From assembly GCF_000153285.1 (NCBI RefSeq), contig NZ_CH724168.1, forward strand, positions 1,732,333 through 1,796,332: a stretch of DNA of 64,000 nt, written 5' to 3'. A program made the position numbers and the translations under genes. The stretch comes from Synechococcus sp. WH 7805. GTDB lineage: Bacteria; Cyanobacteriota; Cyanobacteriia; PCC-6307; Cyanobiaceae. Each line of letters begins with the position of its first letter. The first letter of the stretch is position 1. The notes beneath the pieces were generated by a model. The model did not search any database. It was not told where the DNA came from and saw nothing but the letters and a program-made list of their open reading frames with translations. Positions 2,963-29,559 of the stretch are shown piece after piece.

Positions 2963-3454
2963 ATGTTCGAATTGCTGTCCTATGAGCGCTTCCGCGACAC
3001 ACCAGCGGTGCGTTTCTTTGACGTGACGGTGGAAACGTCCAATGCCCGTGATCTGGTGATTCACAGCGGGCCTGCAATCAGTCCGCCCGATGATCCAGAC
3101 AGCGGGGCCTGGCAGTTCTATTTGCATCCTCATCAGGAAGACAATCTTTTAGCGGCCAGTGGTGGCCGTACTTTTTATCTGGTGAATCTGGCTTGGACGA
3201 AGCCGTTTCACATCGTGCGTCTCCAAAGTGGTGGCGACATCCTGCGCATTCCACCCGGTACCTTCCATCGCTCGGTGTCGGACCCAGATGGTTCCGTGGT
3301 CCTCAACCAAGCGGTTCGGGAGGAAGGGGTGTCGTTGGTGCAGGAGTTCCGGGTTTACAACAGTGCACGCATTCCGGCTCTGATGGCTGTGACATCGATC
3401 CAGGCCCCACCGCCGCGTTTTCACGGCGTGGAACCCTTGGCTCAGGCAGCCTGA
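2963..3454 (+). CDS. Small cupin-like protein of unknown function
   Basis: The 163-residue product has the beta-rich pattern of a single-domain cupin: YLHPHQEDNLLAASGGRTF resembles the first metal-binding motif (H-x-H with a following Glu), and RIPPGTFHRSVSDPDG resembles the second (P-G-x-x-H). I chose the ATG at 2963; the frame also has an in-frame start at 2909. Its end overlaps the converging transglutaminase-like gene by 13 bp. The motifs are visible, but the substrate and reaction are unknown. A sugar-binding or dioxygenase-like cupin are both possible. Confidence 0.7.
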   Translation: MFELLSYERFRDTPAVRFFDVTVETSNARDLVIHSGPAISPPDDPDSGAWQFYLHPHQEDNLLAASGGRTFYLVNLAWTKPFHIVRLQSGGDILRIPPGTFHRSVSDPDGSVVLNQAVREEGVSLVQEFRVYNSARIPALMAVTSIQAPPPRFHGVEPLAQAA

Positions 3455-4341
3455 ATCAGGGGTGCGACGGGTGCTGATAGGGGTTCGGGCTCCACAACGG
3501 CTTCAATGGTCCAAGTGAGTTTGCTTTCAGTGGCCACAGGGCCACTGAATGTTCCCTGAACGGCTGCGGTGAGATCGGGCTTCGAGGAACTGGCCAGCAC
3601 GATGTAGCGCGAGGTGATTTCCCCACCGGCGCTCGGATCAAAGCCACGCCATCCGGCACCTGGTAGATAGATCTCGGTCCAGGCGTGCAGGTCGTACTGC
3701 TCAGGGGCAGGTTCAGCCAGGTGATAACCGCTGACAAATCGAGCTGGAAGGCCGACGCTTCGGCAGCACTCCATCATCAGCATCGCTAGATCGCGGCAGG
3801 ACCCAACGCGTTCGCGCAGGGTGCGGCCCGCCGGCCAGGCCGGGCCTATATGGCGCTGGGTGTACTTGACCCGGTCCCGAATCATCTCCATCAGTTGCTG
3901 AAGAAAGGGCAATGCCTGCTGGTTGCCTCCCATCAACGCGTCCTGAGCCAGTTCCACCGCTGAAGGATCATGCTGGCCATTGGGTAACCAACCCTCCAGG
4001 GCACCCAACAGGTCGTGGTTCAACTGGCCCCTTGGGTAGGGAAGTGGCGGCTCAAGGCCGTTGAAGCAATCGAGAAGAGGAGCGGCTTGCCGGGTTTCCA
4101 CCAGGCTTCTGGCTTCGATCTGAAGCGAAGCGGTCGACCCTTGGAAGCGCACTCGCTCGATTGCATCACCACTGGCTGCCAGAAGCTCATGGCTGTGAAC
4201 AGGAACCGGTGAGATCTGCAGCGAATGCTGAATCAGGCGTTGATGGCCCTGCGCACGGGGTCTCAGGCAGAGGCGGTGTTCCCCCAGTTGTACCGGAGCC
4301 TCATAGCGGTACGTGAGACGGTGGATCAGCTCAGCGCGCAT
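3442..4341 (-). CDS. Transglutaminase-like cysteine protease superfamily protein
   Basis: 299 residues. The N-terminal part (about 1-120) matches the bacterial transglutaminase-like N-terminal region. The catalytic core has the triad of the superfamily: Cys in VGSCRDLAMLMM (about residue 180), His in DLHAWTEIYL and Asp in GFDPSAGG. It is the last gene of a three-gene operon and its start overlaps the end of the alpha-E gene by 16 bp. Published comparative work on ATP-grasp amidoligases predicts that such trios make and trim a peptide. No substrate is known, so this is family-level knowledge only. Confidence 0.85.
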   Translation of the reverse strand: MRAELIHRLTYRYEAPVQLGEHRLCLRPRAQGHQRLIQHSLQISPVPVHSHELLAASGDAIERVRFQGSTASLQIEARSLVETRQAAPLLDCFNGLEPPLPYPRGQLNHDLLGALEGWLPNGQHDPSAVELAQDALMGGNQQALPFLQQLMEMIRDRVKYTQRHIGPAWPAGRTLRERVGSCRDLAMLMMECCRSVGLPARFVSGYHLAEPAPEQYDLHAWTEIYLPGAGWRGFDPSAGGEITSRYIVLASSSKPDLTAAVQGTFSGPVATESKLTWTIEAVVEPEPLSAPVAPLIQAA

Positions 4342-5309
4342 GACGGGTCGGTGGGAATGGAGCCGAAGTCGGTGGTCGTGAAGTAACGACGGTGGATGAG
4401 TTCATGCAGCTTGTTGAGGTCGCTTTGCAGTTGATCCACGGCCTCATGCAGTCCCCGTTCAATCACAGCATCGATGCGGACAAAGCTCCATTGGGCCAAC
4501 AGTTGGCCACGCAGGCACTCCAGATCATCCGGGGGGCCTGCATGGGGACCCGCATGAATACGCTCCAGCGTGGCGTTGATCTCCTGCAGACAGAAGCGGA
4601 CCGAGCGGGGAAAGATTGGATCCAGTAGCAGAAATCGCGCCACCGACACTGGTGTGATCGCCTGCTGAACGCTCTGGCGGTACATCTGATAGGCCCCAGC
4701 TGTCCGCAGCAGGGAGATCCACTGCAATTCATCGAGAACCCCGCCCACCTCCGTTGGCGTCGGCAACAGCAGGAAGTACTTCACATCGAGGATGCGGGAG
4801 GTTTTGTCAGCCCGTTCGATCAGCCGCCCCAACTGGCTGAACAGCCAGGCCTGATCGCGACTGAGAGTCACATCGGTAATGCCATAGAAGAGCTGGCAAC
4901 CGCGACGGATACTGCGCAGTTGCTCCTGATCCGGTTCCTGCCAGAGCGCCTCGCCGTCTTGAACATTCCAATAGAGATCATTGAGTTGTTCCCACATTTC
5001 TGTGGTGATCACATCGCGGATCTGGCGAGCGTTCTCACGGGCATTGGCGATGCAACTCACGACGCTGTTGGGGTTGTTGCGATCCAGTAGCAGAAAGCCA
5101 ACAACATCCCTTGGACTTCCCAGGGGATAGCTTTCGTCAAAGCGTTGACGGTCTCCATTGGCATCGACCAATGGAAGCCAAGGCTCAGCGCTGCCGGGGG
5201 GGCAGTCCAGGGCCATGGCTTCGCTCACTTCTAGAAATCGGGAGATGTTTTCGGCCCGTTCGACATACCGGTTGATCCAGTACAGCGAATCGGCCACACG
5301 GCTCAGCAC
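4326..5309 (-). CDS. Alpha-E domain protein
   Basis: A 327-residue, almost entirely helical protein beginning MLSRVADSLYWINRYVERAE, the hallmark start of the alpha-E family. QLFYGITDVTLSRDQAWLF and LGRLIERADKTSRILDVKY are further conserved helices with repeated R/E pairs. The family has no established activity and is nearly always coded with a type-2 circularly permuted ATP-grasp protein and a transglutaminase-like protein, as here. Overlaps of 7 bp upstream and 16 bp downstream indicate one transcript. Confidence 0.88.
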   Translation of the reverse strand: MLSRVADSLYWINRYVERAENISRFLEVSEAMALDCPPGSAEPWLPLVDANGDRQRFDESYPLGSPRDVVGFLLLDRNNPNSVVSCIANARENARQIRDVITTEMWEQLNDLYWNVQDGEALWQEPDQEQLRSIRRGCQLFYGITDVTLSRDQAWLFSQLGRLIERADKTSRILDVKYFLLLPTPTEVGGVLDELQWISLLRTAGAYQMYRQSVQQAITPVSVARFLLLDPIFPRSVRFCLQEINATLERIHAGPHAGPPDDLECLRGQLLAQWSFVRIDAVIERGLHEAVDQLQSDLNKLHELIHRRYFTTTDFGSIPTDPSCALS

Positions 5310-6799
5310 GGTACGAGCTCCGGTTTCTCGGCCGTTACGGCACTGTCGCTGACCACCCAGGTGTCCTTGCAGCCGCCACCCTGGGAAGAGTTCACCACCA
5401 GGGAACCGCGTTTCAATGCCACTCGAGTCAGGCCGCCGGGGCTGACCCAGTCGCTCTTACCTCGCAGTACATAGGGGCGCAGATCCACATGGCAGGGGTA
5501 CAGCTCTCCTTCACTGAGGGATGGAACTGTGGACAGCTGCAGGGTGGGCTGGGCGATGAAATTGCGCGGGTGTGCCTTGATCTTCACCGCGAAGCTCTCA
5601 ATCTCCTCAGTGCTGGCGTGAGGCCCGATCAACATTCCATAGCCGCCGGCTTCGGCGACTGATTTCACCACCAGCTCGTTGAGATGCTCAAGCACAAAAC
5701 GGAGGTCGTCGTCCCTTGAACAGAGATAGGTGGGGACGTTGTCAATGATCGGTTCTTCGTTGAGGTAATACCGGATCATGGCCGGCACGTAGGCATAGAT
5801 CAGCTTGTCGTCGGCGACCCCGCTCCCAGGGGCGTTGGCGATGGCCACCCGACCAGAGCGCATGGCATCGATGAGCCCTGGGACACCGAGCATCGAATCA
5901 CGCCGGAAGACGTTTGGATCGAGGAAATCGTCATCGATGCGCCGGTAGATCACATCCACAGGTTCCCGGCCAGCAGTGCTGCGCATCCAGACGCGTCCGT
6001 CCTCACAGATCAGATCGCGGCCTTCCACCAGGGCAATGCCCATCTGCTGGGCCAGATAGCTGTGCTCGAAGTAGGCGCTGTTGAACACGCCGGGGGTGAG
6101 CAGTACCACTCTGGGGGCATCACTCCAGGGGGCCAGATCCTGCAGCGTGCGCAAGAGATGGGAGGGGTAATCGTCGATCGGCTGCACTGTGCGGCCCGCA
6201 AACAGGCTCGGGAACAACCGTTTCATCACCCGGCGGTTCTCAAGGAAATAAGCCACGCCGGAGGGGCAGCGCAGGTTGTCCTCCAGAACCCTCCAGGTGC
6301 CGTCGCCATCGCGGATCAGATCCAGACCGGAGATATGGCACCAGCGATTGAGCGGCACGGTGATGTCCTGCATCTGGGGCCGCCAGCCCTGGGAGCTCTC
6401 CACATCCTCACGCGGGATCACGCCATCGTTGAGGATCCGTTGGGGACCATAAACGTCCGCCAGAAACTGATCAATGGCCTCCAGGCGTTGCACCAATCCG
6501 CGCTCCAGAACGGACCATTCCTGGCGGTGAATGAGTCTTGGCAGCGGATCGAAGGGCAGAATCCGCTCTCCGCCATGCAGACCTGATCCGTTGAGTCGGA
6601 AGGTGGCGCCGAGACGTCGTAACAGGTTGCTCGCTGAGGCGTGACTGCGATTTAGCTCCGCCAGCCCCATAGCGCCGAGGGAGGACAGAAGTGGCTCCAG
6701 ATCAGCACGGGGAGCGGACTGTTCGCGGCAGAAATATTCGTCGTACCCCTCGGTTGGTCGGTACTCGGTGAACATCGCCTGAGTAATTAACACCCTCAT
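5303..6799 (-). CDS. Circularly permuted type-2 ATP-grasp protein
   Basis: 498 residues. FTEYRPTEGYDEYFC near the N-terminus is the family's start motif. RDGDGTWRVLEDNLRCPSG and YRRIDDDFLDP carry the acidic metal-binding residues, and GSGVADDKLIYAYVPAMIRY plus VVKSVAEAGGYGMLIGPHAS give the permuted ATP-binding lobe. The family is thought to form amide bonds, possibly between amino acids or onto a protein. It is first in the operon with the alpha-E and transglutaminase-like genes. The ATG at 6799 is used; the ATG at 6775 would start directly at the conserved motif and is equally plausible. Confidence 0.88.
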   Translation of the reverse strand: MRVLITQAMFTEYRPTEGYDEYFCREQSAPRADLEPLLSSLGAMGLAELNRSHASASNLLRRLGATFRLNGSGLHGGERILPFDPLPRLIHRQEWSVLERGLVQRLEAIDQFLADVYGPQRILNDGVIPREDVESSQGWRPQMQDITVPLNRWCHISGLDLIRDGDGTWRVLEDNLRCPSGVAYFLENRRVMKRLFPSLFAGRTVQPIDDYPSHLLRTLQDLAPWSDAPRVVLLTPGVFNSAYFEHSYLAQQMGIALVEGRDLICEDGRVWMRSTAGREPVDVIYRRIDDDFLDPNVFRRDSMLGVPGLIDAMRSGRVAIANAPGSGVADDKLIYAYVPAMIRYYLNEEPIIDNVPTYLCSRDDDLRFVLEHLNELVVKSVAEAGGYGMLIGPHASTEEIESFAVKIKAHPRNFIAQPTLQLSTVPSLSEGELYPCHVDLRPYVLRGKSDWVSPGGLTRVALKRGSLVVNSSQGGGCKDTWVVSDSAVTAEKPELVPC

Positions 6800-6974: not shown

Positions 6975-7100
6975 TTGGATGACAATCTCTGGGCTGGAAT
7001 GATCTTTGCCCTTGGTGCTGCGGTGACCCTGGCCACTGTGGTGATGATTCTTTCCGGTCATCTTCGCTGCCGTGATCGGGGAGCGTCGGATGTCCGCTGA
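6975..7100 (+). CDS. Tiny one-helix membrane protein upstream of the symporter
   Basis: A 41-codon frame starting with TTG at 6975, eight bases after a good ribosome-binding site (AGAGGA at 6961-6966). The product has a short acidic start, one hydrophobic helix (AGMIFALGAAVTLATVVMIL) and a polar, Arg-rich tail. The stop overlaps the start of the symporter by 11 bp, so translation is coupled. Many sodium:solute symporters are preceded by a helper protein of about 40 residues with one helix; the layout here fits that. The frame is open upstream to 6915, but the ribosome-binding site supports the TTG. Function is inferred from position. Confidence 0.6.
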   Translation: MDDNLWAGMIFALGAAVTLATVVMILSGHLRCRDRGASDVR

Positions 7101-8520
7101 CGCTGCCCCTTTTCTGGCACCAGGGATTGCATGGGCGCTTGTGGTGCTGTTCTCCGTGTTGTGGATTGCGCTAGGGATCGCCTGGGGCCGCCGCGGTAAA
7201 GGAGATGCGGACGATTTCATGCTGGCGGGCCGCAACATCGGGTTGGCCCTGAGCACAGCCACCTTGATGGCGTCTTGGGTGACGGGCAACACGACCCTTC
7301 TGGCCCCGGAATTCGGCTACAGAACAGGCCTCTGGGGCATGTTCAGTTACGCCCTGGCAGGACTGGGGTTGATTTTGTTTGCGCCGCTGGCCGCTCGCAT
7401 CAAGCAGCTGATGCCCAACGGACGCACCAGTGGTGATTTCATTCGGCTGCGCTACGGACGCTTGGCTTGGTGGGTGTTCATGGTGATCACCGCCGTGTAC
7501 ACCCTTGGCTTTCTGATGACCCAAGCCATGGGCGCTGGGCTGTTACTCCAGGCTCTATCTGGGTTTGACTACCACGTGGGCATGGTGGTGGTGATCGGTG
7601 TCGCAACGGTTTACACGTTGTTTGGTGGCATGCGGGCGGTGATTGGAACCGATTTCATCCAATCGCTGCTGATCATGGTGTTGCTGGCAGTGGTGGCGGT
7701 ACTTGCTTTTCGTCAGTTCCCGATGCCTGAGGTGCATGCTCGCTTGATCGCTGAGCATCCCGACCGTCTTGATCTGCTGCTCCCCGCCGGTCTGTTGATC
7801 GCCTGGAATTCAGCTCTGTTCTCGATGGGTGAGGTTTTTCACAACAACATCTGGTGGTCCCGAGTGTTCGCCAGCCGTCGCAGCGTGGTGATGACATCTT
7901 TTCTGTTGGGGGGGCTGGCCTGGATGAGTGTCCCCTTGGTGACGGGCTCGATCGGTCTGGTCGCACTGGCCAGAGACCTGCAGCTGGAGCAGGTGAACAT
8001 GGTGTTCCCAGTGATGGCGGCCGATCTTCTTGGGGCTGGTGGGGCTGCATTGGTGTTTGTCGTCGTCTTCGCGTCACTCACCTCCACTTTGGATTCTCTG
8101 TTGGCGTCCACCGCGGATTTGCTGGCTGAAGACGTCTATTTCCGTCTGCTTCGTCCCCAGGCCAATGATGCGCAGCTCAAGCAGGCGGCACGGCTGATGG
8201 TGGTCGGTCTGGCCGTGGTCACTGTGGCCCTGTCCTGGCCGCGGCTGGACTCGCTGGCGTCGGTGTTGTTCTTTACCGGTGCGTTGGTGGCCTCAACGGT
8301 CTGGCCTGTGGCTTGCGGTCTCTACTGGTCATCCGCCAATCGTTGGGCAGCGATCGTCGCCATGGTTGCCGGTAGTGCTGTCGGTCTGACGGCCTACGTT
8401 CTGATTGCCCCTTATTGCGCGGCAGTGTTCTCCGCGGCGGTTTCGGCCGTCGTGATGGTGGTGGGCAGTCGTCGGAAGCCCGAACGGTTTGATTTCAATC
8501 TCTTGAAGGAGGAGGGATAA
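7090..8520 (+). CDS. Sodium:solute symporter, DUR3-like subgroup
   Basis: 476 residues with about 13 hydrophobic segments. Family features are FMLAGRNIGLALSTATLMAS in the first core helix, VYTLFGGMRAVIGTDFIQS (the SSS signature region), and LDSLLASTADLLAEDVYFRL near helix 9. The last two resemble DUR3 urea/polyamine symporters more than proline or pantothenate carriers. I chose the ATG at 7090; a GTG at 7072 is in frame. It is flanked on both sides by one-helix membrane proteins and followed by genes for carbamoyl and amide chemistry. This suggests uptake of a ureido or carbamoyl compound, or of urea itself. Substrate unproven. Confidence 0.85.
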   Translation: MSADAAPFLAPGIAWALVVLFSVLWIALGIAWGRRGKGDADDFMLAGRNIGLALSTATLMASWVTGNTTLLAPEFGYRTGLWGMFSYALAGLGLILFAPLAARIKQLMPNGRTSGDFIRLRYGRLAWWVFMVITAVYTLGFLMTQAMGAGLLLQALSGFDYHVGMVVVIGVATVYTLFGGMRAVIGTDFIQSLLIMVLLAVVAVLAFRQFPMPEVHARLIAEHPDRLDLLLPAGLLIAWNSALFSMGEVFHNNIWWSRVFASRRSVVMTSFLLGGLAWMSVPLVTGSIGLVALARDLQLEQVNMVFPVMAADLLGAGGAALVFVVVFASLTSTLDSLLASTADLLAEDVYFRLLRPQANDAQLKQAARLMVVGLAVVTVALSWPRLDSLASVLFFTGALVASTVWPVACGLYWSSANRWAAIVAMVAGSAVGLTAYVLIAPYCAAVFSAAVSAVVMVVGSRRKPERFDFNLLKEEG

Positions 8521-8524
8521 CGCC

Positions 8525-8671
8525 ATGGTGATGTCGGTGTTGCTCATGGTTCTGGTGGACCAACGCTGGTTCCGTGTCGTCCTGGTGGGAAGTCAGGTGG
8601 CGCTCGTTTGCTCTGTGCTAGCGCTGTTGTTGATTTGGTTGATTGAGTGGAGAAGCGGACGTGTCTGGTAA
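8525..8671 (+). CDS. Tiny one-helix membrane protein downstream of the symporter
   Basis: A 48-residue frame beginning 4 bp after the symporter stop; the symporter's last codons (AAGGAGGAGGG) form a near-ideal ribosome-binding site for it. The product is MVMSVLLMVLVDQRWFRVVL followed by a strongly hydrophobic helix (SQVALVCSVLALLLIWLIEW) and a short basic tail. I do not recognise a family. Close coupling to the transporter suggests an accessory subunit or assembly factor. Confidence 0.6.
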   Translation: MVMSVLLMVLVDQRWFRVVLVGSQVALVCSVLALLLIWLIEWRSGRVW

Positions 8672-8672
8672 G

Positions 8673-8687
8673 TGTTCGTTTCGAACA
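8673..8687. promoter_or_regulatory. 15-bp perfect inverted repeat, possible operator or hairpin
   Basis: TGTTCG-TTT-CGAACA begins two bases after the stop of the small membrane protein. It opens an AT-rich 175-bp spacer before the carbamoyltransferase gene. It has no following T run in the plus direction, so it is not a classical terminator. It could be a dimeric repressor site or an mRNA-stabilising hairpin. The arm order (GTTCG then CGAAC) is the reverse of the Gram-positive LexA box. Confidence 0.4.
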
Positions 8688-8846
8688 TATTTGGGGTGTT
8701 TTGTATTAAATCAAACTATTTTTTGAGTCTTTTTCTAAAGAACGTGTATCGAGCTAGACGTTCGCACTCAACTCTTGTTATCGAGAGAGGATGTGATTCA
8801 CAGCACAAGCACGCGATTTACACGTCGGGTGTTGATGCACTTGCTT

Positions 8847-9962
8847 ATGGCAGATCCCGGCACTGCAGTGATTGAGGAGGTATCGGCGCCGCTCCGCTTC
8901 CGGCCGATGGGTCCCGATGTGTTCGGTCATGACCAGCCTCAGGAGCTTCTGGCTGCCATCGCTGAAGATGGCGAGCCCTTGTTGGATCTGATCGACCAGC
9001 ATGTTGTGTCGATGCAGGCGTTCCGACCCGAAACTCTGCTTCAGCTGTTTCGATTGGCTGCGAAATTCGAGAGCAACCCTGACCGTTACTGCCGTCACAA
9101 CACGCCGCTCACCGGCAAGATCCTGATCAACGCTTTCTACGAGCCCAGCACGCGCACACGCCTTTCCTTCGACAGCGCCTGGCATCGCCTCGGCGGCGAT
9201 TCGATCAACATCACCGACCGCAGCACCACCGGGATCGCCAAGGGGGAGTCGCTGGAGGATGTGGCGCACATGTTCAACAACTACGGCGACTGTGTGGTGC
9301 TGCGCGACAGCAATCCGGATGCTGTCTATGCCATGACTTCCACTCTGCGGATTCCGATCATCAATGCCGGCAATGGCATTGATGAGCATCCGACGCAGGC
9401 GATGGCGGATCTCTACACGATTTTCAAGTGGCGTCCCAGTTTGGCTTTGACTGAGGTGTTGCCCAAGGATCGGATCCGCATCGGGGTGATCGGTTTGCCG
9501 TCACGGATGCGCACTGTGCGTTCATTGCTGCGGATCCTCAGCAAATTCCCCCAGATCCTTGAGGAGGTGGTGGTGATTCATGCGGCCGGGGTTGACTCAG
9601 AAGCGCCTCTGTTTGATCCGGGTCAACTGGAGGAGCTGGAAGCGAGCGGTGTGACCATCCGCTGCAGTTCAGATCTGGCGGCTGAGATTCCCGAGCTGGA
9701 CGTTGTTTACATCAATGCGATCGCCTGGGTTGGCGACAGCTATGAGGTGCACGGCGGTGGATTTCGTCTCACCCGGGATCTGCCGTTCAAGCCTGAGGCG
9801 ATCGTGCTGCACCCCCTGGCGCGGGGCCCCGAGCTGAGCACCTGTTTGGATGACACGCCGCACAACTGGTATTTCAGCCAGGCGCGTGGGGCGGTGTTTC
9901 TGCGCATGGCATTGCTCACCTGCATGGTGAATCGTGCCGAGCGGGTGATGGATGTGATCTGA
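8847..9962 (+). CDS. Aspartate/ornithine carbamoyltransferase superfamily enzyme, acceptor unknown
   Basis: 371 residues, about 60 longer than typical PyrB. The carbamoyl-phosphate site is intact: STRTR at residues 101-105, KGES at 132-135, Arg in VVLRDS (150-155), HPTQ at 181-184 and SRMRTVRS near 219-226. The HPLPR motif of PyrB is HPLAR here (322-326). The PyrB aspartate-binding R-x-Q motif is absent; the equivalent stretch reads YINAIAWVGDSYE (288-300), closer in style to the ornithine-enzyme acceptor region. It should therefore carbamoylate something other than aspartate, or run in reverse. The start is uncertain: ATGs lie at 8835 and 8847, and a GTG at 8793. It is followed after 9 bp by the AsnB-like gene. 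Confidence 0.85.
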   Translation: MADPGTAVIEEVSAPLRFRPMGPDVFGHDQPQELLAAIAEDGEPLLDLIDQHVVSMQAFRPETLLQLFRLAAKFESNPDRYCRHNTPLTGKILINAFYEPSTRTRLSFDSAWHRLGGDSINITDRSTTGIAKGESLEDVAHMFNNYGDCVVLRDSNPDAVYAMTSTLRIPIINAGNGIDEHPTQAMADLYTIFKWRPSLALTEVLPKDRIRIGVIGLPSRMRTVRSLLRILSKFPQILEEVVVIHAAGVDSEAPLFDPGQLEELEASGVTIRCSSDLAAEIPELDVVYINAIAWVGDSYEVHGGGFRLTRDLPFKPEAIVLHPLARGPELSTCLDDTPHNWYFSQARGAVFLRMALLTCMVNRAERVMDVI

Positions 9963-9971
9963 GGCGAACTG

Positions 9972-11996
9972 ATGTGCGGAATCGGAGGTGTATTTCTGGC
10001 GGATCGTCGTCAGACGTTGGATCGTCAGTTGTTGGTCAACATGGCGGCCATTCAGTCCCATCGCGGACCGGATGGTTTCGGTGTGGAATGCATCGACGCT
10101 GCCGGTGTCGGCTTCTGTCATGCCCGGTTGTCGATTATCGATCTGAACGAATCGCGGGCAAGGCAGCCATTCCTCAGCGACGACCGCCAGGTGCTGATGG
10201 CGCACAACGGCGAGTTCTACGACTTTCAGCGCATCCGGGCTGATCTCACTGCTCAGGGGGTGCGTTTCAGCACCAAGAGTGATTCCGAGATCCTGCTGCG
10301 TCTCTATCAACGGCAAGGTCTCGAGTCCACGTTGCCCTTGCTGCGGGGGGAATTCGCCTTCGCCTTGTTTGATGCCGTGGATGACTGTCTGTATCTGGTG
10401 AGGGATCGCTTCGGTATCAAGCCCCAGTACTGGACGATGACGCCTGAGGGAGTGGTGTTCGGCTCCGAGTTGAAGGTGCTGTTTGCCCATCCATTGGTGG
10501 AGAGACGTTTCACCTCGGAGGGTCTGTTTCATCAATTGATGCAGACCATGGTTCCGGGAACGACCGCCTTTGCCGGGGTGCACCAGGTTCAGCCCGGTCA
10601 TGTGCTGAAGGTGCAACGCAGGGGTGACCGGCTTGAGGTGTCGGAGTCCACCTATTGGGATGTTGATTTTCCCCGTTTGGATCAGCGGGACAGCACCCTC
10701 ACCGAGGCCGATCACATTGCCAATGTGCGGGCTGCTCTGCTGGAAGCGGTGGAGATGCGGATGGTGGCGGATGTGCCGGTTGGTTGTTATCTCTCCGGCG
10801 GCATCGACAGTTGTTCGATCCTCGGTCTGGCGTCGGCGGTGAGTCAGGGTCCCGTCAAGGCCTTCACGATCGGATTTGATGATGCCCGCTACGACGAAAC
10901 ACCCATTGCTGCCGAGATGGCAGAGGCCACGGGTGCCGAACAGGACGTGATGCGTCTGTCGGGCCGTGAGTTGTATGGCCACATGGAACAGACGCTTTGG
11001 CACACCGAGCGCACGATCTACAACACCCTCGCTGTGGCCAAATATCTGATGAGTCGCCACGTCAACAACGTTGATTACAAGGTCGTGATGACCGGGGAAG
11101 GGTCAGATGAGCTGTTCGGTGGTTATCCAGCCTTTCGGCGCGACATGTTCCTCCATGGTTTGGATGATCTGCCGCAAAGCGACCGCCAAGATTGGGAATC
11201 TCTGCTTCAAACCAACAATTCCCTGGTGCAGGGAGCGATGCTGGCGGCTGATCAGGTGGATGATCCCGACCTTGATGCTGTGGTGGGTTTCACCCCCAGC
11301 TGTCTGCAGCCCTGGCTGGCCTGCGCGCCGCTTGTGCCTGATCTGCTGGCTGAAGAGCACCGCCAGGCGTTAGCGGAGTATTCGCCGGGTAAGGCCATTG
11401 CTGAGCAGTTGAATCCGCAGCAACTCGAGGGCCGCCATGCCCTCGACAAGGCTCAGTACGTCTGGATCAAAACGATGTTGGAGGGCCAGATCCTCACCTG
11501 GGGAGGTGATCGCGTCGACATGGCCAATTCCATGGAGGCTCGGCCGGCTTTCCTTGATCACCACCTAGCGGCCGCTGCGGTGCAGGTGCCTCCGGAGCTG
11601 CGGATCAAGGGCAAAACCGAGAAATACGTGCTTCGGGAGGCGATGGCTGGCTTGCTGCCGGAGGTGCTCTACAAGCGTGAGAAATTTGCCTTCATGGCGC
11701 CTCCGGCCCACACCGAGCCTGAGAAGTGGGCGCAGATGAAGCAATTGGCCGATGACTACCTGAGTGATGAGGCGATTGATGCGGCTGGGTTGTTGAGCAA
11801 AGAGGGGGTGCGTACCTTGTTTGCGCGCCATGACGACCCTGTCACCACCGACGCCGAGAGGGTTCAGATGGACGCTGTGATCAACCACCTCCTGGGTGTT
11901 CAGATGCTGCATCGGATGTTTGTGGCGGCCGATGTGCCAGCTCAGGCTCGCGAGCAGGCTGATCACCTCGGTTGGCGGGTATTGATGCCCGTTTGA
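9972..11996 (+). CDS. Asparagine synthase-like glutamine amidotransferase
   Basis: 674 residues. Cys2 (MCGIGG) is the glutaminase nucleophile, followed by RGPDG (31-35) and NGEFYD, the class II amidotransferase pocket. The synthetase half has the pyrophosphate loop LSGGIDSCS near residue 275 and GEGSDELFGGYPAF. All catalytic hallmarks of AsnB are present, so the enzyme should use glutamine and ATP to amidate a carboxylate. It is coupled to the carbamoyltransferase gene (9-bp gap), which is unusual. The substrate may be aspartate or the carbamoylated product of the neighbour. It is longer than the 550-residue E. coli AsnB, resembling the 600-670-residue asnB paralogues that act on specialised substrates. 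Confidence 0.85.
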   Translation: MCGIGGVFLADRRQTLDRQLLVNMAAIQSHRGPDGFGVECIDAAGVGFCHARLSIIDLNESRARQPFLSDDRQVLMAHNGEFYDFQRIRADLTAQGVRFSTKSDSEILLRLYQRQGLESTLPLLRGEFAFALFDAVDDCLYLVRDRFGIKPQYWTMTPEGVVFGSELKVLFAHPLVERRFTSEGLFHQLMQTMVPGTTAFAGVHQVQPGHVLKVQRRGDRLEVSESTYWDVDFPRLDQRDSTLTEADHIANVRAALLEAVEMRMVADVPVGCYLSGGIDSCSILGLASAVSQGPVKAFTIGFDDARYDETPIAAEMAEATGAEQDVMRLSGRELYGHMEQTLWHTERTIYNTLAVAKYLMSRHVNNVDYKVVMTGEGSDELFGGYPAFRRDMFLHGLDDLPQSDRQDWESLLQTNNSLVQGAMLAADQVDDPDLDAVVGFTPSCLQPWLACAPLVPDLLAEEHRQALAEYSPGKAIAEQLNPQQLEGRHALDKAQYVWIKTMLEGQILTWGGDRVDMANSMEARPAFLDHHLAAAAVQVPPELRIKGKTEKYVLREAMAGLLPEVLYKREKFAFMAPPAHTEPEKWAQMKQLADDYLSDEAIDAAGLLSKEGVRTLFARHDDPVTTDAERVQMDAVINHLLGVQMLHRMFVAADVPAQAREQADHLGWRVLMPV

Positions 11997-12091
11997 ATTC
12001 TTTGATGAGGGTTAAAACGTCGCATTGACGACAAGCTCAATTGGGTTCCAAAGCGAAACTGGACCTTGGTTTGAACTGAAGGTCACGATCC

Positions 12092-13381
12092 TTGCCCGAG
12101 CTGTTGATCCATCGCTCACAAATCGCTCCAGCTGGAGCCGATCGAGAGCGGTTAGGTGTCCAGCCTCGGCGCGACAGATTGATTGATTCGCTCGAGTCCA
12201 TGGCGGCCATTGGCCTTCAAGCCGATGGAAGCGTTTGTCGCCGCGGGTTTAGTTCGGCCGATGTTCAAGGCCGGGACCAGCTTGCGTGCTGGATGCAAGA
12301 GGCCGGCATGCAGCTGCGTGTGGATGCCGCTGGCAATTTGATTGGCCGGCTCGAGGGGCAGGACCCCTCGTTGCCGGTGCTGATGACGGGTTCGCATTTG
12401 GATACCGTCCCAACAGGTGGTCGTTTTGATGGAGTCCTTGGCGTCTTGGCGGGCCTGGAATGCGTCCGTGCGCTGAATGATGCGGGGCAGCGTCTACGAC
12501 ACCCCTTCGAGGTCGTGGCTTTCGCTGATGAAGAGTCAACGATGGTCGGCTGCAAGGGCATGGCTGGCACGGCATCGATGGACCCATCGGCTTACGCCAC
12601 CAGCAACGGGGATCCGATTGACATCAACCTGGAGCGAATCGGTGGTCACTGGCCATCCCTGCCCTCGGCGGCGCGATCTGATTCAGCCGTTGCAGCCTTT
12701 CTTGAACTGCATGTTGAGCAAGGTGCTGTGCTCGAGCAGCGGCGCGATGCCATTGGCATTGTTGAGGGCATCGTCGGGCAGAGACGTTTCAGCATTCATG
12801 TAAAGGGTCAGGCCAACCATGCCGGCACAACGCCGATGGGACTCCGACAGGATGCCCTCGCCGCTGCCTCCCGGATTGTGCTGGCGGTGGAAGAGATGGC
12901 TCGGTGTCATCCCGGTGATCCGGTGGCGACGGTGGGACGTCTTGAGGTTTGGCCCAATGCCGCCAACGTTGTTCCAGGCTCCGTGTCGATGACGGTGGAC
13001 ATTCGTGATCTGGATCCCGCTGTTCTCGACCAATTGGTGTCCTGCTTGCAGGACGAGCTGGAATCCATCGGCTTGGCAACCGGCTGTGCAATCCGGTTGG
13101 AGCCGCAGTTTCAGGTGTCGCCCACACCCGCTGACGCGCTGGTGATGGCCACGATTGAATCGGTGGCTGAAGATTTGGGGTTGAGCATGAGTCGGCTTCC
13201 GAGCCGTGCCAGTCATGACGCCCAAGAGATTGGGCGGCGTTGGCCCATGGGAATGATCTTTGTGCCCAGCCGCGAAGGTTTGAGCCATTCAGCAGCTGAA
13301 TTCACCAGTGACAGTCAGTGTCTGGCAGGAACCGCTGTTCTCTTGCACACCCTTGAACGATTGGATCGTGTGCTCTCATGA
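12092..13381 (+). CDS. N-carbamoyl-L-amino-acid hydrolase / allantoate amidohydrolase family (M20)
   Basis: 429 residues of the M20 zinc amidohydrolase group. Metal ligands are seen in GSHLDTVPTGGRFDGVLG (His and Asp, near residue 100) and FADEES (paired Glu, near 148). HVEQGAVLE and NHAGTTPMGLRQDAL match the dimerisation and substrate region of N-carbamoylases. The N-terminal helix RRDRLIDSLESMAAIG requires a start well upstream, so the TTG at 12092 is used; no ATG precedes the conserved helix. The enzyme splits a carbamoyl or ureido group to ammonium, CO2 and an amino acid. Its stop overlaps the DUF1028 start (ATGA). Confidence 0.85.
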   Translation: MPELLIHRSQIAPAGADRERLGVQPRRDRLIDSLESMAAIGLQADGSVCRRGFSSADVQGRDQLACWMQEAGMQLRVDAAGNLIGRLEGQDPSLPVLMTGSHLDTVPTGGRFDGVLGVLAGLECVRALNDAGQRLRHPFEVVAFADEESTMVGCKGMAGTASMDPSAYATSNGDPIDINLERIGGHWPSLPSAARSDSAVAAFLELHVEQGAVLEQRRDAIGIVEGIVGQRRFSIHVKGQANHAGTTPMGLRQDALAAASRIVLAVEEMARCHPGDPVATVGRLEVWPNAANVVPGSVSMTVDIRDLDPAVLDQLVSCLQDELESIGLATGCAIRLEPQFQVSPTPADALVMATIESVAEDLGLSMSRLPSRASHDAQEIGRRWPMGMIFVPSREGLSHSAAEFTSDSQCLAGTAVLLHTLERLDRVLS

Positions 13382-14052
13382 CGTTCTCGATCGTTGCTCG
13401 TGATCCCAGCAATGGTCGTTTCGGTGTTGCCGTTGCCACCTGTCATCTCGCAGTGGGCTCCACGGTTCCGCACATCCGCTCTGGAGTGGGCGCAGTTGCG
13501 ACACAAGCCCATACCAATCCATATCTAGGAATCTGCGGCCTGGAAAGGCTCGAACAGAGTGCTGATGCTGATGTGGTGCTGGCCAGCTTGCTTGCCGATG
13601 ATCCTCTCCGCGAACGCCGTCAGTTCCACCTGATTGATGCACAAGGTCGTACCGCTGCCTGGACGGGGGGGGACTGTGGATTCTGGGCTGGGCATCGCCA
13701 TCGCATGAATCTCTCTGTTGCTGGCAACTATCTGGTCGGCGAGACGGTTCTCACATCCATGGAACAGGCCTTTCTGGCAAGTGATCCATGCTGGAAGTTG
13801 GGTCGCCGTTTGATGACGGCACTGATCGCGGGTGAGGCTGCCGGAGGTGATGGTCGCTCGACACATTCAACTTCGGCTGCGCTGCAAATTAGTGGTGAAG
13901 CAGCGTTTCCGTTGCTTGATTTAAGGGTTGATTTTCGGGATTTGGCAGTTTCTGAACTGATGAATGTCTATGAACGAAGTCAAGAGCTCTGGGCCCAGCA
14001 ATGGCGTGATTCATTTTCAGAATTGCCACAATTAAATCGTCTCATTGCTTGA
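13378..14052 (+). CDS. DUF1028 protein, putative Ntn-type hydrolase
   Basis: 224 residues. TFSIVARDPSNGRFGVAVAT at the N-terminus, VGAVATQAHTNPYLGICGLE and RERRQFHLIDAQGRTAAWTG are the characteristic DUF1028 motifs. The family (COG3342) is predicted to have the Ntn-hydrolase fold; the invariant Thr2 exposed by Met removal is the likely nucleophile. Some members are misnamed pilins in databases. Coupling by ATGA to the N-carbamoylase gene suggests a related amide or ureido substrate. The catalytic role is inferred from the fold, not shown. Confidence 0.82.
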   Translation: MTFSIVARDPSNGRFGVAVATCHLAVGSTVPHIRSGVGAVATQAHTNPYLGICGLERLEQSADADVVLASLLADDPLRERRQFHLIDAQGRTAAWTGGDCGFWAGHRHRMNLSVAGNYLVGETVLTSMEQAFLASDPCWKLGRRLMTALIAGEAAGGDGRSTHSTSAALQISGEAAFPLLDLRVDFRDLAVSELMNVYERSQELWAQQWRDSFSELPQLNRLIA

Positions 14053-25645: not shown

Positions 25646-26941
25646 TCAAGCCGCAGTGCTGGTGGCTGAGCGGCGTTCAGCGGGGGAAGTCAAGGTGGGG
25701 CAATTGGGCCGACGTGGACGCCTTGCTCCCTGACTGCGCATGGTGGACGCTCGGTCGGCACGTCCTGCCAGGGCGAGGTCGGAGGCAAAGGACGGATTGC
25801 AACTCTGCAGCCTCGACCAGCTCGGCAGTTGATGGGCGATTGGCGATGCCATTAGAGACGTGAGGCCAGGCCTCAGGAGTTCGGAGAAGCGATGGACCGC
25901 CAGTTCTTCTCCATGTCGGTCGTAGGGCAACCGATTGATCGCTGAGTCGAGTCCGAACTGACGCACCCTGTCTTCGCCAACCCGTCGGTACAGCACTTCC
26001 AAGGTGGGCAGTTGATCCATGGACACCACGCATCCTTCGTGTTCCATCAGGCTGCGCAACACCGTGCAGAAGATTTCGCTGGCCATGCGTTGGAGTCCCT
26101 CATTTGGACGTTGACCCAGGCTCTTGTGCTTGTGGTCGAAAAGACCCAGGTCCACCTGGGCGATTCGGCTGGGTGCTACGTGCCGATACACCTCCGAGAG
26201 CAAGCCCATTTCCAGGCCCCAGTCCGATGGGATGCGCAGATTCATGGCGAGATCCCTTGTAAAAGCGAACTCCCCTGCCAGTGGGTAGCGAAATGTCTGG
26301 AGGTAACGGAGGTAGGGCAGTGGTCCGAAGATCTGCTCCAGGCTCGTCAGTAATGGGCCTACAAACAAACGGGTGGCTCGGCCCTGAAGGGCTTGGGTTT
26401 CCAGGGAAAGCCTGCTGTAGAAGGCTTTCACGTACGCCATTCCGTGGGATGGGTCGAGCAGGGGTCTGAGCATCCGTTCCGGATAGCCGGAGCCAAAGGT
26501 GCGAATGTCAGCGTCGAACAGGCCGATGACTTCAGCGTGCTGACAGGCAACGCCCAGGCCTTGCCATACCGCCCAACCCTTGCCGGGAGGACCAGTCAGA
26601 TCGAGGCCATGCTGGTCCATCGACGTCAGGATCTCTTTCACGGCCGGACCGTTCGTCCAATGCACCTGCACTGGGAAAGGCATGTCGGCGAAAAACTCTT
26701 CTGCAGCCTTCACATCGGCTGCACTGTCCGCTGACAGTGCGATCACCAGATTGGAGAGTCCCGTGAGCGAGGAGAGTGTGTCGCGGATCAGGCGCAGAGC
26801 GGGTCTGCTGAATTCCTCCATGAGGCATGGAATCAGCAGAGCGGTTGGTCTCTGCTGAAGCTCCTTGTTGAAGGCGATGGCATTGAGATTGCCCAGGCTG
26901 TAGTCGTGAACCGTGGCGATCAGGCTCTGCTGAAAATCCAT
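25646..26941 (-). CDS. gpgS: Glucosyl-3-phosphoglycerate synthase (GT81 family)
   Basis: 431 residues from the ATG at 26941. NAIAFNKELQQRPTALLIPC opens the GT-A domain; GKGWAVWQGLGVACQHAEV and GLFDADIRTF provide the nucleotide-sugar and metal sites (Asp-Ala-Asp), and GLEMGLLSEVYRH is the acceptor region. It transfers glucose from NDP-glucose to 3-phosphoglycerate, the first step to the compatible solute glucosylglycerate. It is divergent, by 69 bp, from a GH13 phosphorylase and gpgP. The last 45 or so residues, rich in Arg, Ser and Pro (SQGARRPRRPNCPTLTSP), extend past the conserved fold and could reflect a recent frameshift or an unused tail. Confidence 0.87.
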   Translation of the reverse strand: MDFQQSLIATVHDYSLGNLNAIAFNKELQQRPTALLIPCLMEEFSRPALRLIRDTLSSLTGLSNLVIALSADSAADVKAAEEFFADMPFPVQVHWTNGPAVKEILTSMDQHGLDLTGPPGKGWAVWQGLGVACQHAEVIGLFDADIRTFGSGYPERMLRPLLDPSHGMAYVKAFYSRLSLETQALQGRATRLFVGPLLTSLEQIFGPLPYLRYLQTFRYPLAGEFAFTRDLAMNLRIPSDWGLEMGLLSEVYRHVAPSRIAQVDLGLFDHKHKSLGQRPNEGLQRMASEIFCTVLRSLMEHEGCVVSMDQLPTLEVLYRRVGEDRVRQFGLDSAINRLPYDRHGEELAVHRFSELLRPGLTSLMASPIAHQLPSWSRLQSCNPSFASDLALAGRADRASTMRSQGARRPRRPNCPTLTSPAERRSATSTAA

Positions 26942-27010
26942 GCGGTGTTCGATGCAACAACGGAAAGAAGGCCGCTGCTTCATACCTGAAGAATGTTCAG
27001 GTGAAACAGA

Positions 27011-28741
27011 ATGCAGCTTCAGAGCGAGCGAACGCTGCGAAATCTGCTGTCAAGCCTTTACTCAAGCCATCCTTCCTGGGATCTCGAGGCGTTGTCGTCG
27101 CAATTGCTGCAGATTCTTAGCTCCGCATCAGGAAATGGCGATATCCCCACCAAAGGCAATCCCTGGACTGTCGACGATGTGGTGCTGATTACCTACGCCG
27201 ACACTGTCGTTGAGGCCGATCAGCCGGCTTTGGTGAGCCTTCGCACTTTTATCAACAGCCAGCTCTCCGATTTCGCAGGGGTCATCCACGTCTTGCCGTT
27301 CCTGGAAGCCTCGAGTGATGGTGGATTCGCCGTGGCTAGTCACGACTGTCTGGAGTCCCGCCATGGTGATTGGAATGACCTGGCTGATCTTGCTGAGGGG
27401 CGCAAGTTGATGGCTGATCTGGTGTTGAACCATGTCTCGGCATCCCATCCCTGGGTGCGTCAGTTCTTGCGTGATCAGGAGCCGGGTCGGTCCTGCGTTC
27501 TGGAGGCGTCTCCTGATCCTTGTTGGGACAACGTCGTCCGTCCCCGCAGTTCTGCCCTTTTTACCAAGCTTCAAGGCCCCATCAGCATGCGTCAGGTCTG
27601 GACCACCTTTGGACCTGACCAGGTGGATGTGGATTGGAGCCATCCCGAGGTTTTGCTTGGATTCACCCGTTTGCTTGCCCGCATGGTGGCCCATGGGGTG
27701 AGATGGATCCGTCTTGATGCGGTGGGGTTTGTCTGGAAGGAACCAAACACCAGTTGCATTCACCAACCTCAAGCCCACCAGCTTGTGGAAATCTTGCGTC
27801 AGTTGCTGACCATCGCTTGCCCCGACGGAGTGGTGGTCACGGAGACCAATGTTCCCGAACAGGAGAATCTGTCGTATCTGCGCACAGGGAGAGAGGCCCA
27901 TCTGGCCTACAACTTTCCCCTGCCACCGCTGCTGCTTGAGGCGGCTGTCAGCGGCTCCGCTGATTTGCTCAATCTCTGGTTATCGCGCTGGCCATCGCTG
28001 CCAGAGTCGACGTCGTTGCTCAATTTCACCGCCTGTCATGACGGCGTTGGGTTGAGACCTCTCGAGGGATTGATGCCGCCCTCACGCCTTATGGACCTCT
28101 TGATCGCGTGTGAGCAGCGCGGAGGCTTGGTGAGCCATCGCCGGTTGGCTGATGGTAACGAGGTCCCCTATGAGATCAACATCAGTTGGTGGAGTGCCAT
28201 GGCGGATGGGGGCCTCGACCCCAGCTACTGGCAGAGGGAACGCTTCCTGCTGACGCAATTGATGGTTCTGGCTCTGCCCGGGGTGCCTGCGTTGTATCTG
28301 CCGGCTCTGCTCGCCACTGCCAATGATCTTGGTCGCTTCAGGCGCACGGGTCACCGACGTGATCTCAACCGACCCCAGTTCAAAAAATCCTCGGTGGAAC
28401 GGCGTCTGCAGGATCCTGACAGTGATGCGGCAGCCGTTTTGGTTGCGCTCAAGCAGGCGATTGCGGTGCGGGCGACGCAGCCGGCGCTGCATCCGGATGG
28501 CCAACTTCAGGTGCTGACCCCGGACCGGGTGGATCGCGTTGTGCTGCATCGATCCCATGCGGGTCATGACCTTGTGGCGGTTCATAACGTCACATCGACC
28601 CGTCTCACCTTGGATCCCTTTGGCTTGCTGGATTTGGAGGACACAGACCCATGGGTCGATTGCCTCAGTGGTCGCACCCTTGAACCTTGCAGACGACATC
28701 TGCTGAACCCTTATGAAGTGCTTTGGCTGGTGAGGTCATGA
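27011..28741 (+). CDS. GH13_18-type sugar phosphorylase, probably glucosylglycerate phosphorylase
   Basis: 576 residues with the GH13 conserved regions: DLVLNHVS (I), VRWIRLDAVGF (II, nucleophile Asp), VVTETNVP (III, acid/base Glu) and FTACHDGVGLRP (IV). HGDWNDLADLAEGRKLMADL and EVPYEINISWWSAM fit the sucrose-phosphorylase subfamily. In that subfamily, members next to GpgS/GpgP phosphorolyse glucosylglycerate to glucose-1-phosphate and glycerate. Substrate is inferred from the neighbours: sucrose is the alternative. The stop overlaps the gpgP start by 4 bp. Confidence 0.82.
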   Translation: MQLQSERTLRNLLSSLYSSHPSWDLEALSSQLLQILSSASGNGDIPTKGNPWTVDDVVLITYADTVVEADQPALVSLRTFINSQLSDFAGVIHVLPFLEASSDGGFAVASHDCLESRHGDWNDLADLAEGRKLMADLVLNHVSASHPWVRQFLRDQEPGRSCVLEASPDPCWDNVVRPRSSALFTKLQGPISMRQVWTTFGPDQVDVDWSHPEVLLGFTRLLARMVAHGVRWIRLDAVGFVWKEPNTSCIHQPQAHQLVEILRQLLTIACPDGVVVTETNVPEQENLSYLRTGREAHLAYNFPLPPLLLEAAVSGSADLLNLWLSRWPSLPESTSLLNFTACHDGVGLRPLEGLMPPSRLMDLLIACEQRGGLVSHRRLADGNEVPYEINISWWSAMADGGLDPSYWQRERFLLTQLMVLALPGVPALYLPALLATANDLGRFRRTGHRRDLNRPQFKKSSVERRLQDPDSDAAAVLVALKQAIAVRATQPALHPDGQLQVLTPDRVDRVVLHRSHAGHDLVAVHNVTSTRLTLDPFGLLDLEDTDPWVDCLSGRTLEPCRRHLLNPYEVLWLVRS

Positions 28742-29559
28742 CGACGGGACTGGAGCGTCAGTGGTGGGTGGTTACCGACCTCGATGGCACGTTGATGGAC
28801 CATCGCTACGACTGGGCGCCGGCTTTGGACACGATTCGTCTCCTTCAGCGTCGAGGAATTCCCGTCATCCCCTGCACAAGCAAAACCGCCGAAGAAGTCC
28901 GTCGTTTTCGTGAACAAACCGGTCTCAGGGATCCGTTCATCGTCGAGAACGGGGGAGCCATTCATGGTGAGAACGCCGATGGCAGCCTCTGGCAGCAGAT
29001 GCTCGGTCCGACATGGAAGGAGCTGCGCCCGCAGCTCTCGCAGTTGTCACGGGATTTAGGACAACCGCTGCAGGCGCTTGATGATCTCAGTGATCAGGAG
29101 GCTGATCGCTTGCTGGGCCTTGGCGGGGAGGCATTGCGACAGGCCCAGCGTCGGGCCTGCAGCGTGCCGTTCGTGTCTCCAGTGGATTCCGAGTCCCGCA
29201 GGCGTCTGCAACAGCTGGCGAAGGCCCGTCAGCTTGCGATTGTGCAGGGAAATCGCTTGGGCCATCTGCTGGGTGCTGACGTCAGCAAAGGCCGGGCCCT
29301 GGCGGTGCTGAAGCAGCGCCAGGGTGCATCTGAAGTCGCTGTTCTGGCTTTGGGAGATTCGCCCAATGACCTTCCTTTGCTGCATGCCGGCGACTGCTCG
29401 ATCGTGGTGCCAGGGGTGGAGGGACCACACCCCGCTCTGCAAGACGGGCTGCACAACGGCTGCTTCCAGTTGGCACCAGCTCCCCATGCGCTGGGGTGGG
29501 CTGCAGCCGTTCAGCGCTGGCTTCCAGGACTTCTCGATGACCTGGATCAAGTGGATTGA
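28738..29559 (+). CDS. gpgP: Glucosyl-3-phosphoglycerate phosphatase (HAD, mannosyl-phosphoglycerate phosphatase type)
   Basis: 273 residues from the ATG at 28738. HAD motif I is VTDLDGTLMDHRYDW, motif II lies in PCTSKTAEEVRRFRE, IVENGGAIHG is the cap entry and LALGDSPNDLPLLHAGD is the motif III/IV block. This is the Cof-type group that includes mannosyl-3-phosphoglycerate phosphatase. It removes the phosphate from glucosyl-3-phosphoglycerate to give glucosylglycerate. The 3' end overlaps the converging permease gene by 13 bp. Confidence 0.87.
   Translation: MTTGLERQWWVVTDLDGTLMDHRYDWAPALDTIRLLQRRGIPVIPCTSKTAEEVRRFREQTGLRDPFIVENGGAIHGENADGSLWQQMLGPTWKELRPQLSQLSRDLGQPLQALDDLSDQEADRLLGLGGEALRQAQRRACSVPFVSPVDSESRRRLQQLAKARQLAIVQGNRLGHLLGADVSKGRALAVLKQRQGASEVAVLALGDSPNDLPLLHAGDCSIVVPGVEGPHPALQDGLHNGCFQLAPAPHALGWAAAVQRWLPGLLDDLDQVD

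Follow-up and report, generated by a model that had tools for sequence, protein, structure and literature searches.

What do the genes at positions 6975 to 14052 of this 64,000-nucleotide stretch of Synechococcus sp. WH 7805 DNA (hereafter the window) make, or break down? They encode a solute symporter, a carbamoyltransferase (CTase), an AsnB-like amidotransferase, an M20-family amidohydrolase and a DUF1028 protein, and an earlier note on this DNA had proposed that they take up and dismantle, or make and later recycle, a carbamoylated amino acid as a nitrogen source. The option of making and recycling stood up to the analysis described here, but uptake and dismantling for nitrogen did not. Probably the gene set serves to make, take up and recycle carbamoyl-glutamine amide (CGA) as a salt protectant, with the CTase and AsnB-like protein serving synthesis, the symporter retrieval, and the M20 protein and an amidase recycling. 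We infer substrate, product, order of steps and physiological role from genomes, by way of the observed gene set, its conservation, residue changes in its enzymes, its distribution and its co-occurrence with a CGA producer. The genes are as follows.

6975..7100, + strand: tiny single-span membrane protein with a TTG start, upstream of the symporter; candidate accessory subunit of the symporter
7072..8520, + strand: SSF-family sodium/solute symporter, start perhaps at ATG 7090 (Pfam PF00474, E 2e-29)
8525..8671, + strand: tiny single-span membrane protein downstream of the symporter; relatives keep the end of the open reading frame (ORF), IWWxEWRNGRVW
8847..9962, + strand: CTase, conserved start 8847 in an ORF spanning 8775-9962 (Pfam OTCace_N/OTCace)
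9972..11996, + strand: AsnB-like glutamine-dependent amidotransferase (GATase and Asn_synthase; PF13522/PF13537/PF00733)
12092..13381, + strand: predicted M20-family N-carbamoyl-amino-acid amidohydrolase (Peptidase_M20, PF01546)
13378..14052, + strand: DUF1028 protein, predicted N-terminal-threonine amidase of the N-terminal nucleophile (Ntn) type (PF06267, E 3e-63)

ORF positions agree with the one-strand layout given in the earlier note, a symporter with two tiny membrane proteins followed by four enzymes with gaps of 9, 95 and -4 bp, and Pfam agrees with the carbamoyl- and amide-acting families it had named; the set is real and conserved. Its label of a DUR3-like symporter was dropped: only general SSF models matched, the best in NCBIfam being SSF/PutP, below cut-off. 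The two tiny membrane ORFs are probably real genes, because their sequence is conserved beside the symporter in relatives, the upstream one keeping the pattern LDxLWAxLIFALGAxVTxATVVMIxxGHLxWR at the equivalent position.

Conservation was clear within cyanobacteria. The CTase, counted at ≥65% identity, was present in 22/151 sampled Cyanobiaceae genomes and DUF1028 in 23/151; a phylum-wide sample of 386 genomes gave CTase matches in Cyanobiaceae alone. Symporter, CTase, AsnB-like, M20 and DUF1028 genes were grouped in every CTase carrier for which a wider region was read (19 larger regions), and in the remaining few of the 22 the match positions likewise placed CTase and DUF1028 ~4 kb apart, while in the 23rd DUF1028 genome (G138) the contig is broken and AsnB, M20 and DUF1028 are present on it. 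DUF1028 is inverted in some lineages and the genes flanking the cluster mostly differ between genomes. The grouping of the five genes is not due to chance, and the question of whether they stay together in other genomes, raised by the earlier note, is answered in its favour. The same note had taken the position between nitrate and urea loci as support for a role in nitrogen metabolism; urea genes do adjoin the window cluster, but this position is common to its closest relatives only, and nitrogen neighbours are not kept across carriers. One genome of the same genus as WH 7805 (G484) has two CTase copies.

Beyond cyanobacteria, a scan of GTDB genomes returned 242 related stretches, the best 80 of which lie in Synechococcus, Cyanobium, Prochlorococcus, Idiomarina, Pseudidiomarina, Kangiella, Pseudoalteromonas, Bowmanella, Pleionea and Pseudomaricurvus. 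Outside Cyanobiaceae, the gene set is carried mostly by gammaproteobacteria that are marine or halophilic. CTase and AsnB genes were neighbours in 104/105 loci from two phyla (gap 5–475 bp), and each protein stayed about 57–97% identical across lineages. Around this pair, gene order took four forms: symporter-CTase-AsnB-M20-DUF1028 in 27 cyanobacterial loci (both DUF1028 orientations); CTase-AsnB-M20-DUF1028 in 16 loci, those checked being Prochlorococcus; membrane protein-symporter-CTase-AsnB, with no adjacent hydrolase, in 20 gammaproteobacterial loci, mostly Idiomarinaceae; and M20-isochorismatase-[symporter]-CTase-AsnB-[MscS] in 28 loci. A symporter is found in cyanobacterial and most gammaproteobacterial clusters, with none beside those of Prochlorococcus or Ectothiorhodospira, and the MscS mechanosensitive channel gene adjoins AsnB in nine loci (10 bp after it in G606). 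The invariant core across phyla is thus CTase plus AsnB, both biosynthetic, with hydrolases optional.

This core bears directly on the idea that an external ureido compound is imported and dismantled as a nitrogen source. Symporter, carbamoylase and amidase families are indeed present, but the invariant carbamoyltransferase and amidotransferase would spend carbamoyl phosphate, ATP and glutamine. Because the core is biosynthetic and the hydrolases optional, a nitrogen-catabolic reading is probably wrong; the 20 hydrolase-free loci and the unconserved nitrogen neighbourhood speak against a nitrogen-source role as well, and we regard import for dismantling as very improbable.

Most gammaproteobacterial loci encode, just before the symporter, a membrane protein matching no Pfam or NCBIfam family (L097 5109-5660, L134 5175-5663 and others), with a signal peptide, an FN3-like region recognised by eye and a C-terminal span; it is a possible symporter subunit. 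Contigs labelled as metagenome-assembled genomes (MAGs) of Gammaproteobacteria and Trichodesmium (L082, L135) carry Synechococcus- and Prochlorococcus-type copies, probably through binning errors.

The CTase belongs to a family apart from PyrB and ArgF. The WH 7805 genome has three OTCace proteins, PyrB, ArgF and the cluster CTase, and three were likewise found in 8/9 and 6/6 of the other carrier genomes tested (the exception, MAG G506, has two), as the earlier note's ‘non-aspartate carbamoyltransferase’ would lead one to expect. CTases formed their own clade against cyanobacterial PyrB (support 100/100), within which the cyanobacterial members were a single clade, and shared ~27–31% identity with the PyrB/ArgF-type proteins compared. 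The predicted structure has the aspartate carbamoyltransferase (ATCase) fold (Z 33–35 to ATCases) and, as in PyrB, the carbamoyl-phosphate site is intact, with STRTR, HPTQ and K84-, R105- and H134-type residues invariant in family alignments. Identity as PyrB was ruled out by the separate PyrB in the genome, by a score of 187 bits against TIGR00670 (cut-off 237), by the clade and by loss of two substrate residues. R229 of ATCase holds the side chain of aspartate, and R167 its alpha-carboxylate. In the E. coli enzyme R229 faces the active site, and R167 is in contact with PALA, an inhibitor (PMC6056424). Alignment places A291 and A293 of the window CTase at E. coli R229 and Q231, and the R229 counterpart is Ala or Ser throughout the family, whereas the counterpart of R167 is retained. 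It is a natural inference from these losses and this retention that the substrate has a neutral side chain and a free alpha-carboxylate, and we predict the enzyme to be a glutamine N-alpha-carbamoyltransferase. A second carbamoyltransferase group (L207, L208, L209, L210), ~34–41% identical to the CTase family, has no adjoining AsnB; these proteins (G743, G768, G663, G695), which also lack common neighbours, were left out of the family.

Could the pair nonetheless be an ordinary PyrB and an asparagine synthetase, neighbours by accident? Broad family models do match, and the WH 7805 genome encodes no full-length AsnB-type protein besides the AsnB-like one. The earlier note had said that its proposal would fall if the two were the sole PyrB and the sole asparagine synthetase of the genome; the first does not apply, and the second does as far as full-length Asn_synthase-family proteins go. 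Nevertheless, separate PyrB and ArgF in carriers tested, the distinct clade and adjacency in nearly every locus of two phyla already contradict an accidental pairing, which we consider scarcely credible.

The AsnB-like protein retains Cys2 and the SGGIDS motif; its predicted reaction is amidation of N-carbamoyl-glutamine at the alpha-carboxylate. The logic resembles that of the N-acetylglutaminylglutamine amide (NAGGN) system, whose gene trio encodes an AsnB-like amidotransferase, an acetyltransferase/ligase and a peptidase: in both, an N-terminal cap and AsnB-like C-terminal amidation would yield an uncharged glutamine-based solute, and a peptidase-family gene lies nearby. Here, however, the cap would be a carbamoyl group added by a carbamoyltransferase. 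Membership of the NAGGN family was ruled out by a score of 293 bits against TIGR03104 (cut-off 570) and by the conserved set having no acetyltransferase or ligase gene.

Between them, the CTase and AsnB families would carry out both changes needed to convert glutamine to CGA. CGA, an uncharged solute found in Ectothiorhodospira marismortui (PMC1224877), was described in 1991 and has been reported from just one organism (PMC3857566), a purple bacterium. In the papers found it is described as a compound only; no genes or enzymes assigned to CGA were found in the open literature searched, although an assignment in a subscription journal is possible, and that literature yielded no report of CGA in cyanobacteria. 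The combination of genes appears undescribed, as the earlier note had supposed.

The link to CGA runs through phototrophs. The CTase (≥57% identity) occurred in 21/369 sampled gammaproteobacteria, two of which (G606 and G814) are among only six phototrophs in that sample, and in 41/47 genomes of the order containing both; a second purple-sulfur order (that of G529) gave no match in 85 genomes, an empty result that alone shows little. A high-potential iron-sulfur protein of G962 has the same sequence as PDB 1hpi, which we take to be the Ect. vacuolata protein. Because of this identity, and because G963 fits Ectothiorhodospira sp. BSL-9 (PMC8877833) in length, the order of G606 and G814 is the Ectothiorhodospira order. 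Genomes resembling Ect. marismortui and Ect. mobilis (G814 and G960; locus GC 0.69, fitting the 68.2% and 68.3% of these species respectively) both carry M20 > amidase > CTase > AsnB. Two further genomes, G606 and G999, may, we presume, be Ectothiorhodosinus mongolicus and Thiorhodospira sibirica. A genome survey that lists CGA among possible solutes (PMC7824335) found genes for making neither betaine nor ectoine in Ectothiorhodosinus mongolicus, and for Thiorhodospira sibirica it found none annotated as osmotic-stress genes.

The same logic might serve another N-carbamoyl amino-acid amide, whether built on asparagine, on some other neutral amino acid or on a dipeptide, or the product might differ between cyanobacteria and Ectothiorhodospira. 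Loss of R229 and Q231 does not by itself give specificity, and the M20 protein and amidase vary between lineages; on the other hand, CGA is the known product of the genus in which the cluster is near-universal, and CTase and AsnB remain similar throughout. A different amide is, in our judgement, unlikely.

The hydrolases are more variable. The window M20 protein scored best among NCBIfam models against the N-carbamyl-L-glutamate amidohydrolase ErtE (429 bits, below the equivalog cut-off of 520); ErtE and allantoate amidohydrolase are its top-scoring curated models, but its partner genes differ from those of ErtE. DUF1028 has an invariant Thr2, and its structure model (predicted local distance difference test score 85.5) matched the DUF1028 protein PDB 2imh over its whole length (Z 29.3) and HslV/proteasome at Z ~12, with model residue 2 aligned on the catalytic Thr1. 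Both the predicted fold and the N-terminal threonine agree with the Ntn type proposed in the earlier note, and they fit an amidase role; DUF1028 is predicted to be the Ntn amidase that removes the amide in cyanobacteria, a role in amide hydrolysis that we propose from context. A literature search, with or without carbamoyltransferase, found no published function for DUF1028, and a search on the ErtE pathway was likewise unhelpful. The gammaproteobacterial isochorismatase-type amidase is closest to biuret, ureidoacrylate and N-carbamoylsarcosine hydrolases. Across loci it never co-occurs with DUF1028 while each is always accompanied by M20, which suggests that the two fill the same step.

The CGA pathway would then run as follows. 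CTase would first carbamoylate L-glutamine on its alpha-amine, with carbamoyl phosphate as donor; the AsnB-like enzyme would then use glutamine and ATP to turn the alpha-carboxylate of N-carbamoyl-glutamine into an amide, giving neutral CGA with both charges masked. The SSF symporter, together with the small membrane proteins, may re-import lost solute, and the MscS channel beside the operon in Ectothiorhodospira and relatives may release it on osmotic downshock. Recycling on demand would fall to the M20 N-carbamoylase together with an amidase, which would be DUF1028 in cyanobacteria and the unrelated isochorismatase-type enzyme in gammaproteobacteria; the products would be glutamine or glutamate, CO2 and ammonium. 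Osmoadaptation is favoured over a nitrogen source because of the marine and halophile distribution and the adjacent MscS gene. A further point for an osmolyte comes from G115, where the locus for the compatible solute glucosylglycerate (L049 13104-16937) lies right against the cluster, on its DUF1028 side. Four N per CGA molecule, the urea genes beside the window cluster and the two hydrolases accompanying the core in cyanobacteria and Ectothiorhodospirales would also suit a nitrogen reserve, a carbamoyl amide stored and then hydrolysed under nitrogen limitation; yet Idiomarinaceae have symporter, CTase and AsnB without an adjacent hydrolase, MscS and halophily suit osmoadaptation, and nitrogen neighbours are not conserved, so that a reserve seems to us quite unlikely.

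Several observations weigh against CGA as the product or salt protection as the role. CGA is termed a minor solute in Ect. marismortui (PMC3857566), and papers on osmoregulation in marine Synechococcus (PMC12834511, PMC2874817) make no mention of the cluster genes, for which no salt response is known. The assignment of G814 to Ect. marismortui is tentative, resting on resemblance in size and GC. The AsnB-like protein also passes TIGR01536, a broad model for asparagine synthases, and since it is the sole full-length member of its family in the window genome, paralogy leaves room for asparagine synthesis there; several further full-length Asn_synthase-family proteins accompany the cluster AsnB in Ect. 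marismortui-, mobilis- and vacuolata-like genomes, and those of G814 themselves count against the CGA reading. In G999 (L282/L325) the CTase has no AsnB, M20 or amidase nearby (~16 kb read on the downstream side), and in G963 (L294) it is split into two overlapping matches in different frames, an apparent frameshift.

The full claim has, in our estimate, about an even chance of being correct: that CGA is made in picocyanobacteria and halophilic gammaproteobacteria alike by two enzymes, one of them a new glutamine N-alpha-carbamoyltransferase, and that in cyanobacteria DUF1028 takes the place of the isochorismatase-type amidase. If true, it would provide candidate genes for a compatible solute described in 1991 with none assigned in the open literature searched, define a new carbamoyltransferase specificity and give a domain of unknown function a testable role; it would also predict that some of Earth's most abundant photosynthetic organisms contain a nitrogen-rich osmolyte, with a bearing on marine dissolved organic nitrogen.

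Elsewhere in the window, a trio encoding transglutaminase-like, Alpha-E and circularly permuted ATP-grasp proteins lies on the opposite strand at 3442-6799, near the cluster only in closest relatives, and a glucosylglycerate locus (GpgS-like, sucrose-phosphorylase-like and MPGP-type phosphatase genes) occupies 25646-29559.

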